Positions 30,493-37,725 of a DNA stretch of 38,858 nucleotides are shown piece by piece. This DNA comes from Balneolaceae bacterium (lineage in GTDB: Bacteria; Bacteroidota; Rhodothermia; Balneolales; Balneolaceae), in contig REDT01000166.1 in assembly GCA_007693295.1 (NCBI GenBank), positions 1 through 38,858 on the forward strand, given 5' to 3'. Under the pieces are notes generated by a model. The model searched no databases. It was given only the letters and a program-made list of their open reading frames with translations, and was not told the origin of the DNA. Numbering within the stretch: the first letter of the stretch is position 1; each line of letters begins with the position of its first letter. The position numbers were made by a program, and so were the translations under genes.

Positions 30493-30735
30493 GTTATTGG
30501 ACTTCAATTTTTTTCGGTTCCGAAAAGCCGGAATCCACAGTTAGTTTGAAACATTATTTTATAAGTTGGCTACAAAATAATCAGTTCGCAGACCAAGATA
30601 CAAGAAATTACGAGATCAAAACATGAATCTGCTCAATTCCATTACACATTATCATTGATCTTTGCACTCTTGCTGAAATCATCAATCTGGAAGAAGCTGA
30701 GCAGTAACCCTCAAGATATTTTTTGACCCCCAAGC

Positions 30736-30774
30736 AAAGTCCGGCTGCCATTTGGAGCCGGGCTTTCTTTTTTT
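30736..30774 (+). terminator. Rho-independent terminator
   Basis: AAAGTCCGGCT (30736-30746) and AGCCGGGCTTT (30756-30766) form an 11-bp stem with one wobble and a 9-nt loop, followed by C and seven T (30768-30774). It works on the plus strand only. The upstream interval 30493-30735 has no clear gene (only an 11-codon frame, MNLLNSITHYH, from about 30622), so the transcript it ends is unknown; a small RNA is possible. Confidence 0.75.
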
Positions 30775-30779
30775 GCGAT

Positions 30780-30822
30780 AAAAGATCCGCAATGTCTTCG
30801 AAAGACATTGCGGATCTTTTTT
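30780..30822. terminator. Strong 19-bp terminator hairpin before the his leader
   Basis: The arms 30780-30798 and 30802-30820 are perfectly complementary (AAAAGATCCGCAATGTCTT) with a CGA loop, ending in six T (30817-30822). A flanking A-run makes it possibly bidirectional. It isolates the his operon from upstream transcription. Confidence 0.8.
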
Positions 30823-30898
30823 AAGGAATGAATTCAGGCATATCTGTTGTTTATGATTTTGATTGGTTTTAAAAAACTGAAATTCATACCTTAATTAC

Positions 30899-30973
30899 GT
30901 GGCAAAAAACATCACACATATTTCACTTCATCATCACTGCCATCACGGCAGCCACGGGCATATTGTACGATAA
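30899..30973 (+). CDS. Histidine-rich his operon leader peptide
   Basis: A 24-codon frame starting at GTG 30899 and ending TAA 30973. It contains His at codons 7, 11, 12, 13, 15, 16, 19 and 21, including the run HHHCHHGSHGH near its end. It stands 66 nt before hisG, the first his gene. Such peptides let the ribosome stall when charged histidyl-tRNA is scarce and thereby control operon transcription (classical his attenuation). The upstream frame is closed by TGA 30878-30880, so GTG is the only usual start codon. A candidate TTG (30863-30865) - 21 nt - TACCTTAA (30887-30894) promoter would start transcription almost at the GTG. The eight His of 24 residues at exactly this place make chance unlikely. 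Confidence 0.75.
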   Translation: MAKNITHISLHHHCHHGSHGHIVR

Positions 30974-30991
30974 ATCTCCCCTTACCTGCCC
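30937..30991 (+). promoter_or_regulatory. Possible his attenuator with alternative pairing
   Basis: GGCAG (30947-30951), inside the His codons, can pair with CTGCC upstream (30937-30941, loop ATCAC) or with a second CTGCC downstream (30986-30990). GGGCA (30956-30960) can also pair with TGCCC (30987-30991). The mutually exclusive stems fit an attenuator, but there is no T-tract after 30991, so a standard terminator is not visible. Confidence 0.4.
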
Positions 30992-31039
30992 ATTGTTATC
31001 TGACTTCCAACTACCATTCACCATATTATTGATTTTTCT

Positions 31040-31918
31040 ATGAGAACTCTCGATTCTACAACCTCTTTACGTATTGCCGTTCAAAAAGGCGGCCGTTTAA
31101 CCGACAAAACCCTCAGTCTCCTTGAAGGCATTGGTCTGCAATTTGATGATTACAAACGAAGCCTGCTTGTGAAATGCCGCAACTTTGATGTGGAGCTTCT
31201 GCTGATCCGTGACGACGATATCCCCGAATATGTGCAAGATGGCGTTTGCGACCTCGGTTTTGTTGGGGCAAATACAGTTGCCGAAGATGAAGCCGATGTA
31301 ACCATTCTTCGCGGACTCGACTATGGCGTATGCCGGCTTGCTATTGCCGTTCCAAAAAATGGCTCTATCAAAAAAGTTGAAGACTTTGCCGGCAAAAGAA
31401 TTGCCACCAGCTACCCGGTTTTAACCCGCAAGTTTTTTAACTCGAAGGGAATTGATATAGATATTGTGACCCTGTCGGGTTCGGTTGAGATTGCCCCACG
31501 ATTGGAGATTGCCGATGCCATTACCGATCTGGTCTCTACCGGTGGCACGCTAAAGGCAAACGGCCTGATTGAAATCGATAACATTTTTGATTCGGAAACT
31601 CAGCTGATTCAGACCAATAAACCGCTATCGGAAGGCAAAAAACATCTTATCGGCAAGATTCTTCAGCGTATAGAAGGGTATAAAAAAGCCGCAGAAAGCC
31701 GGTACATCATGATGAATGCTCCGCAAAGTGCTGTTGTGGAAATAAAGAAAATTATACCTTCACTAAAAAGCCCAACCGTAATGCCGCTTGCCGACAACGG
31801 CATGGTGGCAATACATACCGTAATTCCGCTCTCTACATTCTGGGATGTTATGGAAAACCTTAAAGAAGCCGGCGCCACAGGTATTGTGATGCTGCCAATT
31901 GAATCGATGATTGTTTAA
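31040..31918 (+). CDS. hisG: ATP phosphoribosyltransferase HisG (long form)
   Basis: First step of histidine synthesis: ATP plus PRPP gives phosphoribosyl-ATP. 292 residues, with the two-lobed catalytic domain (LRIAVQKGGRL; the PRPP-loop region DAITDLVSTGGTLKANGL near 160-180) and a C-terminal ACT-like regulatory domain (about 215-292), so it is the long, histidine-feedback-inhibited form that needs no HisZ. ATG 31040 has no Shine-Dalgarno. First structural gene of the operon. Confidence 0.96.
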   Translation: MRTLDSTTSLRIAVQKGGRLTDKTLSLLEGIGLQFDDYKRSLLVKCRNFDVELLLIRDDDIPEYVQDGVCDLGFVGANTVAEDEADVTILRGLDYGVCRLAIAVPKNGSIKKVEDFAGKRIATSYPVLTRKFFNSKGIDIDIVTLSGSVEIAPRLEIADAITDLVSTGGTLKANGLIEIDNIFDSETQLIQTNKPLSEGKKHLIGKILQRIEGYKKAAESRYIMMNAPQSAVVEIKKIIPSLKSPTVMPLADNGMVAIHTVIPLSTFWDVMENLKEAGATGIVMLPIESMIV

Positions 31919-31994: not shown

Positions 31995-33290
31995 ATGAAA
32001 ACCTACAACTACAAAACCCTTTCCTCCGAAGAGATCGAAGCCCTCTGCCGGCGCCCAAAGATGGACTTCGCCTCGGTTTTTGAGACCGTACAGCCTATAC
32101 TGGATGATGTGCAAAAACTCGGTGATGAAGCGATCAGGGCCTATACCATAAAATTTGACGGGGTTGACCCAAAACCTGTAATTATCAATCCTGCATCCGT
32201 TTCTGTTACGTTAGAGCCAAAGGTTCAGGAGGCGATCGACCGCGCCATGAGCAATATCTTCCGGTTTCACCGGGAACAGGGCACATCCAAAATTGACGTT
32301 GAAACCATGAATGGTGTACTCTGCAGCAGGGTGGCCAGGCCTATTGAGCGGGTAGGGCTCTATATTCCCGGCGGTACGGCACCGCTACCCTCCACTGCGA
32401 TGATGCTTGGAGTGCCTGCTATGATTGCAGGGTGCAAAACCATTGTGATCGCCACTCCGCCCGACAAAAACGGAAACGTTCCTGATTCGATTCTCTATAT
32501 CGCCCAAAAGATCGGTGCAGCTGCCGTTGTAAAAGCAGGCGGTGCCCAGGCAATAGCCGGGATGGCATTTGGCACAAATACCATCCCAAAAGTGGATAAG
32601 ATTTTCGGTCCCGGAAACCAGTTTGTTACCGCTGCCAAGATGATCCTGCAAAACAGTGAGGCTATGGTAGCTATAGATATGCCCGCAGGCCCGTCTGAAG
32701 TTTTGGTTATTGCTGATGAAAACGCAGATCCTGATTTTGTGGCTGCTGATCTTTTATCACAGGCCGAACACGGGTCAGACAGCCAGGTGGTTTTGGTTGT
32801 GACTGAGAATACCGATCTCGATGCAATCAATGCAGCAACGGAAAAACAGCTGAACAAGCTGCCGAGAAAAGAGTTTGCTATAGGTGCTCTCGAGAATAGT
32901 TTTACGGTTGTGGTTAGTTCCACAAAAGAGGCGATGGAGTTCTCAAACAAATACGCTCCCGAACACCTTATTATCAATACAGACGATGCTGATGAGCTTG
33001 CAGAGAGCGTAATCAATGCGGGATCTGTGTTTATAGGCCAGTGGACGGCAGAGAGTATGGGCGATTATGCCTCCGGTACCAACCATACGCTACCTACATA
33101 TGGATATGCAAGAATGTACAGCGGCGTCTCGCTCTACAGTTTTCAAAAATTTATTACCATGCAGAAAATTTCGGAACAGGGGCTGAGAAATTTAGGCCCC
33201 ACTGTTGAAACTTTGGCTGAAATTGAGGGCCTTTATGCACACAAGAATGCGGTGAGCGTGAGGTTGAAGAAGTTGGGTAAGGAAAGTTGA
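31995..33290 (+). CDS. hisD: Histidinol dehydrogenase HisD
   Basis: Last two steps of histidine synthesis: L-histidinol to L-histidine through histidinal, with NAD+ and zinc. 431 residues, normal length. Motifs: [20 protein letters not shown], the [14 protein letters not shown] stretch, QAEHGSDSQ carrying zinc/catalytic Gln-His, the late catalytic His in APEHLI and NHTLPT. No defect seen. A palindromic repeat starts about 14 nt after its stop. Confidence 0.97.
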
Positions 33291-33303
33291 TAAATGCAAT
33301 AAA

Positions 33304-33459
33304 AAAGTCCCCTCTTGCCCCGTAGGGATGCCTATGGCAAGAGGGGATTTAGGGGTGTGTTGATTAAGCATTGAAGCCCTACATGGGACACACCCCTCGA
33401 TCGTGCTAACCGGCTTCGCCTTTAGCACTCACTTTTCCCCTCTCCAGAGGGGACCTTTT
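33304..33459. repeat. Composite palindromic repeat, copy A (hisD-hisC spacer)
   Basis: The outer ends AAAGTCCCCTCT and AGAGGGGACCTTT (to 33458) are inverted. Inside: CCCCTCTTGCC/GGCAAGAGGGG (33309-33319, 33336-33346), AGGGGTGTGT/ACACACCCCT (33351-33360, 33388-33397) and CCCCTCT/AGAGGGG (33437-33443, 33446-33452). It shares CCCCTCT palindromes and AGGGGTGTGTT with copy B at the end of hisC. Confidence 0.7.
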
Positions 33460-33485
33460 AATCCTTAAATCATTACAACCCAAAC

Positions 33486-34583
33486 ATGCCCAAATCCATC
33501 AACATAGAATCCCTGGTTCGTGAAAACATTCGCAACCTCACCCCCTATCGCAGTGCACGGGATGATTTTGACAAGGGAACCCTGCTGGATGCCAACGAGA
33601 ACAGCTACGGCTCCATTGTAAGCAACTCTCTTGACCTGCATCGGTATCCGTCACCCACACACGATCAGTTGCGAAAAAAAATTGCGGAGTACAGGGATGT
33701 GGAAATTGAAAATATCTTTCTGGGAGTGGGAAGCGATGAACCGATTGATCTTTTGATGCGGATATTTTGCGATCCGGAGAAAGAATCGATTCTTATTACT
33801 CCGCCAACCTATGGGATGTATAAAGTGGCGGCAAATATCAATAACGTGGCCATTAAAGAGGTTCTGCTCACAAAGAAGTTCCAGCTCAAGCCGGATGAAA
33901 TTCTGGAAGCAGCCGATGAGTCAACCAAAATCCTGTTCCTCTGTTCACCGAACAATCCCACGGCAAATGACCTGAATCGAACCGATCTGCTCAAAATACT
34001 GATCCGATTCAACGGAATTGTGGTTGTGGATGAAGCCTATATCGATTTCAGCCGGCAGGAGTCTATGGCCGAAATGGTGCGTCAGTATCCAAAGCTTGTG
34101 GTGCTGCAAACCTTTTCAAAGGCATTTGGACTGGCGGGTATCCGGCTTGGAATTGCAATCGCTGATCCCCGGGTCATCAGCTATATGCTTCGGGTAAAAT
34201 CGCCATACAATATCAACAAACTTACTGCAGATACGGCCTTAAAAGCCTTCGACAACCCCGACCTTTTCAATTTAAACATTGATAAAATCCGTGAGGAGCG
34301 CAGTTATGTGGCCGAACAACTCAGTCATAGTGAAGAAGTTGAGATGGTCTATCCATCAAATGCCAACTTTCTTCTCTTCAAAATCCGGAATGCAAAAGAG
34401 GTATATCAAAAACTGGCAGAAAAAGGTATCATTGTGCGTTATCGCGGCAATGAACCCCTATGTGAAGATTGTCTCCGGGTAACAATTGGCAAGCCTGATG
34501 AGAATGTGCGTTTTCTGAAGGCGCTGAAAGAGGTTTTGGAAGAGAATCCCCTCTCGAGAGGGGACAGATCGCAGAGCGTATAG
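33486..34583 (+). CDS. hisC: Histidinol-phosphate aminotransferase HisC
   Basis: A PLP-dependent transfer of an amino group from glutamate to imidazole-acetol phosphate. 365 residues. Fold type I signs: LDANENSYGS at the N-terminus, GVGSDEPIDLL, CSPNNPTAN, DEAYIDF, and the PLP lysine in FSKAFGLAGIRLG. The C-terminal catalytic part ends with RVTIGKPDEN. The last residues (PLSRGDRSQSV) are encoded by repeat copy B, which begins at about 34547 and supplies the stop codon 34581-34583; the original C-terminus was probably replaced by a short new tail, far from the active site, so the enzyme should work. Confidence 0.95.
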   Translation: MPKSINIESLVRENIRNLTPYRSARDDFDKGTLLDANENSYGSIVSNSLDLHRYPSPTHDQLRKKIAEYRDVEIENIFLGVGSDEPIDLLMRIFCDPEKESILITPPTYGMYKVAANINNVAIKEVLLTKKFQLKPDEILEAADESTKILFLCSPNNPTANDLNRTDLLKILIRFNGIVVVDEAYIDFSRQESMAEMVRQYPKLVVLQTFSKAFGLAGIRLGIAIADPRVISYMLRVKSPYNINKLTADTALKAFDNPDLFNLNIDKIREERSYVAEQLSHSEEVEMVYPSNANFLLFKIRNAKEVYQKLAEKGIIVRYRGNEPLCEDCLRVTIGKPDENVRFLKALKEVLEENPLSRGDRSQSV

Positions 34584-34660: not shown

Positions 34661-35548
34661 ATGAAAATCTACATCCACCCAACAGCACTTACCTCTGAAA
34701 CGGAATCCCTGCTTCCCCCGGGAGCTCTTAGCGCAATGGCTTACCTGGCACAGAATGGAGCTGAGCTGGGTTTTGAACCGGAGAAGCTTTCTCAATCCCG
34801 GCTGCGCCTCATTGAAAATGAGGGAATCGGGAATGCAGGATTTGACGCCTCCTCTGCTGACGGCATCATCCGCCGGGAGGAATCGCTGCAATTTGTAACC
34901 GGTGGCGCAATAGTCGAAACAGCAGATCAATGGACAACCCTTGCCCGCGCCATTCTCTTTCCAAGTCGCAAAGCCGCTATCAAGCGAACCACTAAAGAGA
35001 CCGATATTTCGGTATCAATCAACCTGGACGGCACGGGAAAGAGCCGCATCAGCACGGGACTGAACTTTTTCGATCACATGCTCGATCAGATTGCACGCCA
35101 CGGACTCATTGACCTTGAGCTTACCTGCAAAGGCGACCTGGAGGTAGACGAGCATCACACCATAGAGGATACAGCCATCGCCCTTGGTCAGGCAATTCGC
35201 GAGGCTATATCCGGGAATAAAGCCGGCATTCAGCGATATGGATTTGTGCTGCCAATGGATGAGGCGCAGGCCACTGTAGCCATTGATCTTTCCGATCGCC
35301 CCTATTTGCGTTGGGAAGTGGAGCTAAAACGGGAGTACATTGGCGATTTTCCCACCGAAATGTTAGAACACTTTTATTATACCCTGGCCATGAACGCAAA
35401 GGCTACTCTGCATGTTGAGGCATCAGGTAAAAATGAACACCATAAAGTAGAAGCGGTGTTTAAAGGCTTCGCAAAAGCACTTCGCTTTGCGATCAGCCGT
35501 ACTGAAAGAACTAAGGGCATACTCCCAACAACCAAAGGAACGATTTAA
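34661..35548 (+). CDS. hisB: Imidazoleglycerol-phosphate dehydratase HisB with degenerate N-terminal domain
   Basis: 295 residues. Residues about 105-295 are a complete IGP dehydratase (imidazoleglycerol phosphate to imidazole-acetol phosphate) with its metal-binding His boxes: STGLNFFDHMLDQIARHG, DEHHTIEDTAIALGQ, LEHFYYTLAMNAKATLHV and NEHHKVEAVFKGF. It begins with RKAAIKRTTKETDIS, as in bifunctional HisB. The N-terminal ~104 residues occupy the place of the histidinol-phosphate phosphatase (HAD) domain, but the DxDGT catalytic loop is absent (KIYIHPTALTSE instead), the Cys/His zinc loop is missing, and the domain is about 60 residues shorter than normal. Part (LLPPGALSAMAYLAQNGAELGF) still recalls the HAD helix. 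Phosphatase activity should be lost and come from another protein. Confidence 0.95.
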   Translation: MKIYIHPTALTSETESLLPPGALSAMAYLAQNGAELGFEPEKLSQSRLRLIENEGIGNAGFDASSADGIIRREESLQFVTGGAIVETADQWTTLARAILFPSRKAAIKRTTKETDISVSINLDGTGKSRISTGLNFFDHMLDQIARHGLIDLELTCKGDLEVDEHHTIEDTAIALGQAIREAISGNKAGIQRYGFVLPMDEAQATVAIDLSDRPYLRWEVELKREYIGDFPTEMLEHFYYTLAMNAKATLHVEASGKNEHHKVEAVFKGFAKALRFAISRTERTKGILPTTKGTI

Positions 35549-36262: not shown

Positions 36263-37192
36263 TTACCAGCCCATGGCTTTTCGGCGTTCATGAATCAGAT
36301 CCGCGTACATTTCTTTCAGGTCGTTTGATAAAAAGCTTGAATCAATAACATCAATCCAGATTTTATAAACTGATTGAAACTCTTCCTCAATATTGGATAG
36401 TACCTTACGGTTCAATCCCAGCCTCTCATTACCAAAGTAACTGAAAAGTATATTTTTAGTGAAATTGGATTTTTTTCCCTTTAAAGGGAGAGCAAGCTCT
36501 TCTTGTGGGTTTGCCAGAACAATGGTGGTGTTCAGTAAATCGTAAGCGGGGCTGAGCGCAATCATTCCATCCTTATGAATCAATGAAAAATTTTTGAGAT
36601 GCATATCCTCATTCCCGGTCAGGTAACTGAATAGGGTTAAACGAAATAGCTTCATTTTTTCAACAGCCGGAAACGTACAGTACTCTTCGATAAGCCGCGC
36701 CACTTTTTCCATAGAGTAATTGTACTTGGTGTCGCGGGTCATTCCGGCCACCTGGGCAAAATCCTCCACATGAACTTTTCCTGACTTCCCCACCCTGTCG
36801 AACCGCCTTATAAAGTATACAAGCTTCATCTCTTTGTTGTAAACCATACCGTGCAGAGGGGTTTCAATCCCGCACAGGGAGGCCAGTCGCATCGACAGAT
36901 CTTCATTTTCCGGCACCTGTTCAAAATGAGGAGGGTTTGGTTTCAGAATAAAAATTCCATGCCTGTCAACAATTTCAAATCGACTCTGTTTTACGCTCAA
37001 CCGGGCACTTAATTTGGGCTGAACACCCTGAATTGACATCTTTGACATTCTCTTTTGTGACTCAAGCGCAAGCTCCCGGTCGGTAAACGGAAGCGGATCA
37101 AGCTTCTTGAGAGCGGTGTTTAACTTGTTGAGGCCGGTGCTGCTGTAGAGTCCATCCTCTATCGGTTCATATGTGATCGGGCATCGTCTCAT
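36263..37192 (-). CDS. hipT: HipT-type kinase toxin (HipA core without N-terminal subdomain)
   Basis: 309 residues. HipA-family Ser/Thr kinase: family start MRRCPITYEP; Gly-rich loop SIQGVQPKLSA (Ser53, Gln55, Gly56); Lys84 in FILKP; YFIRRFDR; catalytic loop GNEDMHLKNFSL (catalytic Asp196, Asn201); metal-binding AYDLL (Asp218). All kinase residues are present. The N-terminal subdomain of full-length HipA is missing here and encoded by the preceding gene, as in HipBST systems, where HipT phosphorylates an aminoacyl-tRNA synthetase (TrpS in E. coli) and HipS or HipB restrain it. The loop reads SIQ, versus SIS in the E. coli O127 HipT (from memory). A Shine-Dalgarno (GGAGG) lies 6 nt before the ATG. 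Overlaps hipS by 26 nt. Confidence 0.9.
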   Translation of the reverse strand: MRRCPITYEPIEDGLYSSTGLNKLNTALKKLDPLPFTDRELALESQKRMSKMSIQGVQPKLSARLSVKQSRFEIVDRHGIFILKPNPPHFEQVPENEDLSMRLASLCGIETPLHGMVYNKEMKLVYFIRRFDRVGKSGKVHVEDFAQVAGMTRDTKYNYSMEKVARLIEEYCTFPAVEKMKLFRLTLFSYLTGNEDMHLKNFSLIHKDGMIALSPAYDLLNTTIVLANPQEELALPLKGKKSNFTKNILFSYFGNERLGLNRKVLSNIEEEFQSVYKIWIDVIDSSFLSNDLKEMYADLIHERRKAMGW

Positions 37193-37502
37193 GCTGTGCC
37201 TCCACTACAGTTACTGCACCCACGGTGTCGCCACCCACTTCCAACAGGATTCCAAAAAGGTCATCCCTGTCAAGCTTTTGTGATCGAAGCAGCATATCCA
37301 GATTAGCACCTTCCGGAAGAAGTCCTTCAAAAAAAGGCGGAAACTGCTCAAAACGGAATTCACCTATGTTGACCGGCATCGTTACCGAAACCGGCGGACC
37401 GTTGTAGGCGGAATCGTATTTGAACAGATATTCACTGTTCTTTTCCACTTCAGACAGAATGCCGGCCAAAATCCCATGCATATAAACCTCAGCTATTCTC
37501 AT
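37167..37502 (-). CDS. hipS: HipS-like antitoxin (HipA N-terminal subdomain as a separate protein)
   Basis: 111 residues. Matches the N-terminal subdomain 1 of HipA: VYMHGILAGILSEVEKN, FKYDSAYNG, VSVTMPV, PPFFEGLLPEGANLDMLL, LFGILLEVGGDTVGAVTV. No kinase domain. In the HipBST type this small protein binds the kinase and acts as antitoxin. Preceded by the strong Shine-Dalgarno AAGGAGGTGG located in the hipB 3' end. It overlaps hipB by 14 nt at its start and hipT by 26 nt at its end, so the three genes are translationally coupled. Confidence 0.9.
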   Translation of the reverse strand: MRIAEVYMHGILAGILSEVEKNSEYLFKYDSAYNGPPVSVTMPVNIGEFRFEQFPPFFEGLLPEGANLDMLLRSQKLDRDDLFGILLEVGGDTVGAVTVVEAQHETMPDHI

Positions 37503-37725
37503 GATCCACCTCCTTCAGGCACTGTTCCATAATTGGACTGTTCAGGGTTATTGTGATATTCAAAACATCACAGATTTTCCGGAGTGAATCGAACTGTACT
37601 GTCGATTTCCCGTGCTCAACATCAAAAACCACCGATTTACCAACTCCCGCCAAATCTGCAATTTCTTTCTGGGTCAATCCGCTTTTTTTACGGTGACATC
37701 GAATCAATTTGCCTTCTTTATTCAT
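37489..37725 (-). CDS. hipB: HipB-like Xre-type DNA-binding antitoxin/repressor
   Basis: 78 residues from ATG 37725, chosen because an AGGAG Shine-Dalgarno (37731-37735) stands 5 nt before it; the frame stays open to 37785, but that would lie upstream of the predicted transcription start. Helix-turn-helix of the Xre/HTH_3 type (about 5-60): LIRCHRKKSGLTQKEIADLA, VGKSVVFDVEHGKSTVQFDSLRKICDVL. HipB proteins dimerise, repress their own operon and take part in inhibiting the toxin. First gene of hipB-hipS-hipT on the minus strand. Confidence 0.88.
   Translation of the reverse strand: MNKEGKLIRCHRKKSGLTQKEIADLAGVGKSVVFDVEHGKSTVQFDSLRKICDVLNITITLNSPIMEQCLKEVDHENS

Follow-up and report, generated by a model that had tools for sequence, protein, structure and literature searches.

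A conserved, predicted leaderless His-rich leader before hisG in Balneolaceae that probably acts without a standard intrinsic terminator

Among the closest described systems is the enterobacterial his attenuator (HisL), in which a short frame rich in His codons lies directly before hisG, hairpins form co-transcriptionally and charged tRNA-His is sensed. The locus described here shares the frame and its place and would share the hairpins and the sensing, whereas the Balneolaceae leader is a predicted leaderless GTG frame with no intrinsic terminator and no Rfam match. In mycobacteria, leaderless poly-Cys short ORFs stand before cys genes (Canestrari 2020, as cited in PMC9094748); such leaders had been predicted earlier, without terminators and with polyY motifs, and Rho was suspected (PMC1262725). 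They resemble the present case in the leaderless ORF, the amino-acid run near the stop, the lack of an obvious intrinsic terminator, the pyrimidine-rich spacer and the suspicion of Rho (PMC1262725). They differ in specifying cysteine and in belonging to another phylum, and the comparison is one of these features. Streptomyces lividans has the leaderless leader peptides LeuL1 and TrpL1, and some of its leaders, again as here, lack a typical Rho-independent terminator; these are from Actinobacteria, however, and LeuL1 sits in a leuA-linked LEU element with a different predicted fold (PMC8079986).

Closer in descent, signs of leader peptides ahead of amino-acid operons have been reported, as well as a 5' element before hisG in Flavobacteriaceae that is structured and conserved (PMC9723704). 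The 5' elements of Flavobacterium psychrophilum (hisG, pheA; PMC9723704) come from broadly the same phylum and likewise include one before hisG, but most of the non-Balneolaceae Bacteroidota his leaders that we found have a strong intrinsic terminator. A preliminary description of this DNA called His attenuation little described in the phylum, which is fair but not absolute in view of these clues and of the hisG 5' element (PMC9723704); in the part of its text drawn on here, a 2021 study of his genes in the superphylum mentions attenuation for enterobacteria only (PMC8305728). What is already known is his attenuation, as well as leaderless poly-Cys leaders in mycobacteria, and what is new is the lineage-wide Balneolaceae form. 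Work by Lopatovskaya from 2010 reportedly may predict attenuators outside the proteobacteria.

We analysed a 38,858-nucleotide stretch of a Balneolaceae genome (the window). Its hisG is 98% identical to that of the Balneolaceae MAG CSSed162cmA_484 and 84-85% identical to those of Rhodohalobacter isolates, and it opens a cluster in the order hisG-hisD-hisC-hisB-hisH, with hisA further on; the hisH and hisA labels come from sequence and place, without a family search. The features to which the text refers are these:

30863 to 30866, + strand: -33 element TTGG of a predicted Bacteroidota sigma-A promoter; TTGG is conserved in most loci of the Rhodohalobacter group, some 24 nt ahead of the -7 box
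30887 to 30894, + strand: -7 box TACCTTAA, consensus TAnnTTTG, known position -12 to -5, enriched over shuffled upstreams
30899 to 30973, + strand: his leader peptide ORF, MAKNITHISLHHHCHHGSHGHIVR then stop; GTG start at the predicted +1, 8 His in 24 codons, kept by relatives
30937 to 30951, + strand: predicted hairpin P2 within the His codons, CTGCC (30937-30941) with GGCAG (30947-30951), from folding; similar hairpins in many relatives, by inspection
30956 to 30991, + strand: predicted hairpin P3, GGGCA (30956-30960) with TGCCC (30987-30991), from folding and co-evolution in relatives; leader stop codon in the loop
30974 to 31039, + strand: 66-nt G-poor, C-rich spacer from the leader stop to hisG, 6% G and 32% C, no + strand terminator
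31040 to 31918, + strand: hisG (ATP phosphoribosyltransferase), ATG at 31040, 98% identical to a Balneolaceae hisG, first of the his genes
31995 to 33290, + strand: hisD (Pfam Histidinol_dh)
33486 to 34583, + strand: hisC (aminotransferase; Pfam Aminotran_1_2 and place in the his cluster)
34661 to 35548, + strand: hisB (IGPD; Pfam IGPD)

The interval first singled out, 30899-31039, thus consists of the leader ORF and the spacer, whose 66 nt separate the leader stop from the hisG ATG. The 24-codon GTG frame with eight His that had been reported before hisG is real: none of 3,000 dinucleotide shuffles of the upstream region reaches its density of 8 His in 15 codons (the shuffle maximum is 7), and nowhere else in the 38.9 kb window, both strands considered, are there 6 or more His in 15 codons. 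GTG at 30899 is the earliest start possible in the open leader frame. A search of Rfam, His_leader included, with the window and 15 related loci returned no match at gathering score; permissive matches near 30730-30830 were set aside as terminator hairpins that appear to match by chance.

We fetched hisG loci from relatives and inspected the 220 nt upstream, the check suggested with the preliminary description. His codons proved to be conserved. Nearly all Balneolaceae have a His-rich frame there, with about 50 hisG loci carrying it at the same position, and at least 5 His in 15 codons upstream of hisG occur in 79% of 71 Balneolales loci as against 2.7% of shuffles. The Balneolaceae leaders have a median of 8 His, while their length and most other residues vary; the codon directly preceding the stop is His in 27 of 55, and the last His usually lies 1-5 codons from the stop. 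A comparison of 11 closely related pairs shows His retained at 87 of 100 His positions, 10 of these through a CAT/CAC change, and non-His leader positions are unchanged in 117 of 152 (77% versus 87% for His). This contrast is modest per position, and recurrence across Balneolaceae is the stronger argument. A His leader peptide before hisG, conserved across the family while the remaining peptide changes, is thus strongly supported. Sampling across the phylum shows a His-rich frame before hisG also in 23 of 34 Bacteroidota that lie outside the class, and it is absent from one group of families whose hisG is more distant. Control of amino-acid operons by leader peptides is indicated as widespread in the Bacteroidota superphylum.

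The start of the transcript can be predicted from the promoter. A strong TAnnTTTG-like box lies 11-13 nt before the start codon in 70% of the 47 leaders with enough upstream sequence. When the choice of start is allowed for by giving shuffled upstreams the same candidate starts, a box score of at least 7 at this distance is found in 65% of 49 loci versus 4% of shuffles; at other gene starts in the loci, a box at that spacing is seen in only 2% of 345. The box of the window, TACCTTAA, is an imperfect match to the consensus. Since this element spans -12 to -5 in F. psychrophilum (PMC9723704), a distance of 11-13 nt would place +1 at the start codon or at most one base away, and a leaderless frame is predicted. 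With promoter geometry carried over from this other lineage, the predicted +1 in the window is 30899, the G of GTG. We hold it to be quite probable that the his leader ORF is leaderless, judging from promoter spacing. On leaderless mRNAs, GTG starts are usually less efficient than ATG starts, which counts against a leaderless GTG. The concern that transcription might start downstream of the frame does not hold up on this spacing, by which the predicted transcript begins at the frame. Leaderless mRNAs make up about 4-5% in mapped Bacteroidota species (PMC7366714, PMC9723704), and the Balneolaceae give the superphylum a clear example of leader ORFs that are predicted to be leaderless. A search for leaderless leaders upstream of ilvB and leuA turned up no convincing case.

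We now consider what follows the leader. A scan for + strand terminators at 30500-31300 found none. This silence alone is weak, because the scan criteria also miss tandem hairpins upstream of the promoter, and the main evidence comes from a terminator score of our own with positive controls. The score is positive for 6% of 52 Balneolales his leaders and for all 13 trp leaders from the same genome set, and for 81% of 31 hisG upstreams in other Bacteroidota. The Balneolales trp leaders are short WWW peptides before trpE, followed by textbook intrinsic terminators (L145, L158, L160, L167 and other trpE loci), and by the same promoter spacing they are predicted to be leaderless or to carry a 5'UTR of up to about 4 nt. 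The suggestion of His attenuation thus stands as regards the leader peptide but not as attenuation of the enterobacterial type, there being no intrinsic terminator after the leader. With his lacking and trp keeping an intrinsic terminator in the same genomes, the two form a natural comparison for transcription control by a stalled ribosome without a terminator hairpin. A score of zero is also obtained for a few his leaders elsewhere in the Bacteroidota (families f14 and some f30), from which it follows that the terminator may have been lost more than once among Bacteroidota his leaders.

Two side observations concern hairpins with U tracts. Just upstream of the his promoter, at 30738-30823, lie two strong tandem hairpins with U tracts. 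No + strand gene is obvious ahead of these hairpins, which may serve to insulate the his operon or to end an unannotated RNA. In one subgroup of relatives (L034, L036, L037) the leader ORF itself contains a hairpin with TTTTTTG or TATTTTG directly after it, which could be an internal terminator.

In P3, the last leader codons would pair with the spacer across a loop of more than 20 nt. Because MAFFT alignments misaligned the spacer, RNAalifold yielded little, and we chose instead a test in which leaders and spacers are swapped between loci. A leader pairs better with its own spacer in the Rhodohalobacter group (A; permutation p 0.0001-0.011) and in the Balneola/Gracilimonas group (B; p 0.005-0.027), both after removal of close duplicates; the p values are optimistic, since the tree was ignored. 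The Fodinibius group gives no P3 co-evolution signal in this test. Folded alone, the window leader is no better than its shuffles (z -0.58). With a ribosome imposed as a constraint, P3 is kept when the ribosome sits on the first or a middle His codon and is gone when it sits on the last His or the stop. Taken together, we consider that P3 is probably real. GGCAG at 30947-30951 can pair with CTGCC at 30937 or at 30986, and among such alternative pairings no conserved antiterminator was shown. A separate pairing appears in several Balneola/Gracilimonas-group loci, where it is significant: in L063-L065 and L072-L074 the leader mRNA begins with 8-11 nt, taking in the start codon, whose complement lies beyond the leader stop, and the sequences differ between species (GTGAATTC/GAATTCAC, GTGAACTTAGA/TCTAAGTACAC). 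In the group of the window, pairing of the GTGAATTC/GAATTCAC type is not significant, and we therefore do not claim it there.

The spacer itself has an unusual composition. Spacers after his leaders have 7.7% G as against 14% before other genes, and C/(C+G) is 0.78 versus 0.61 (Mann-Whitney p 1e-11, with relatedness ignored). A G-poor, C-rich spacer is what one would expect if Rho loaded there, and a gene for Rho is present. Rho-dependent termination is our best guess for the output step, one that we hold only tentatively because the window has six further 100-nt stretches that equal or exceed the spacer in C-over-G richness and YC dimers in the spacer are not enriched beyond composition. Alongside Rho, the same genome encodes a second Rho-like protein (L262, G000:C141:8045-9127), more divergent and below the family cut-off.

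How might these parts work together? A conserved His frame without the usual terminator hairpin suggests that His shortage is probably sensed and that the his genes are switched by another step. In the scheme that we propose, a sigma-A-type promoter would put +1 on GTG, and the ribosome would load at the 5' end of the mRNA and enter the run of His codons. With charged tRNA-His plentiful, the ribosome would reach the stop codon, unfold P3 and leave the spacer open, and transcription would then stop, ahead of hisG or within it, with no intrinsic terminator involved and most likely through Rho. Under a shortage of charged tRNA-His, stalling would occur at early His codons, P3 would form downstream of the ribosome and transcription would continue. 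The parts of this scheme differ in strength. Very probably, a translated His-sensing leader controls the his genes in cis; a leaderless His-sensing leader working without a standard intrinsic terminator is a likely reading, and the most likely account of the leader is that it senses charged tRNA-His with an output step other than a standard hairpin terminator. The complete version, in which the Balneolaceae his attenuator lost its intrinsic terminator and the ribosome on a leaderless GTG leader either opens or spares a hairpin around the leader's own stop codon and so controls Rho access to the G-poor spacer, is conceivable but doubtful on sequence evidence. If true, it would be a terminator-less, stop-codon-hairpin form of amino-acid attenuation, while most other Bacteroidota his leaders keep the terminator.

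Other readings have to be weighed against this scheme. Classical his attenuation could persist through a degenerate or unrecognised intrinsic terminator, built from P3 or an internal leader hairpin with a weak U tract, and some relatives do carry a U run after P3 or an internal hairpin (GCCC-TTTTTTTG in L047, by eye; GCCATCAC..GTCATGGC-TTTTTTG in L034). Yet a detector that picks up 100% of the trp leaders in the same genomes is positive for only 6% of the Balneolaceae his leaders, the + strand at 30500-31300 has none and the P3 loop exceeds 20 nt, so that we regard this reading as unlikely. Control might instead be translational, with leader RNA masking the hisG start until a ribosome stalled on His codons opens it, as is known for other leaders; the hisG start pairs with leader sequence in some Fodinibius folds. 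In constrained folding of the window's group, however, the region of that start is predicted to be equally accessible at every ribosome position (0.63-0.65), which disfavours masking and makes such control rather improbable. Reinitiation after the leader was rejected, since stalling would then lower hisG, the wrong sign.

A further possibility is that a ribosome stalled near the 5' end stabilises the his mRNA. Its sign of regulation fits, and an early-stalled ribosome would cover the predicted leaderless 5' end, but the co-evolving P3 would be left unexplained, and we think control through decay improbable. That the frame is a chance one, or encodes a metal-binding micropeptide acting in trans and unrelated to hisG control, seems to us very improbable: His-rich peptides can bind metals, but here the place before hisG is kept while non-His residues, length and order drift, and equivalent WWW leaders stand before trpE.

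Two further elements were seen within the his cluster. The gap between hisD and hisC contains a palindromic REP/MITE-like element at 33300-33460 (CCCCTCTTGCC...GGCAAGAGGGG). Between hisH and hisA, on the opposite (-) strand at 36263-37725, lies a HipA-like module that resembles tripartite HipBST toxin-antitoxin systems, with HipA_C at 36263-37192, the HipA N-terminal domain as a separate ORF at 37167-37502 and a probable helix-turn-helix antitoxin frame at about 37510-37725.
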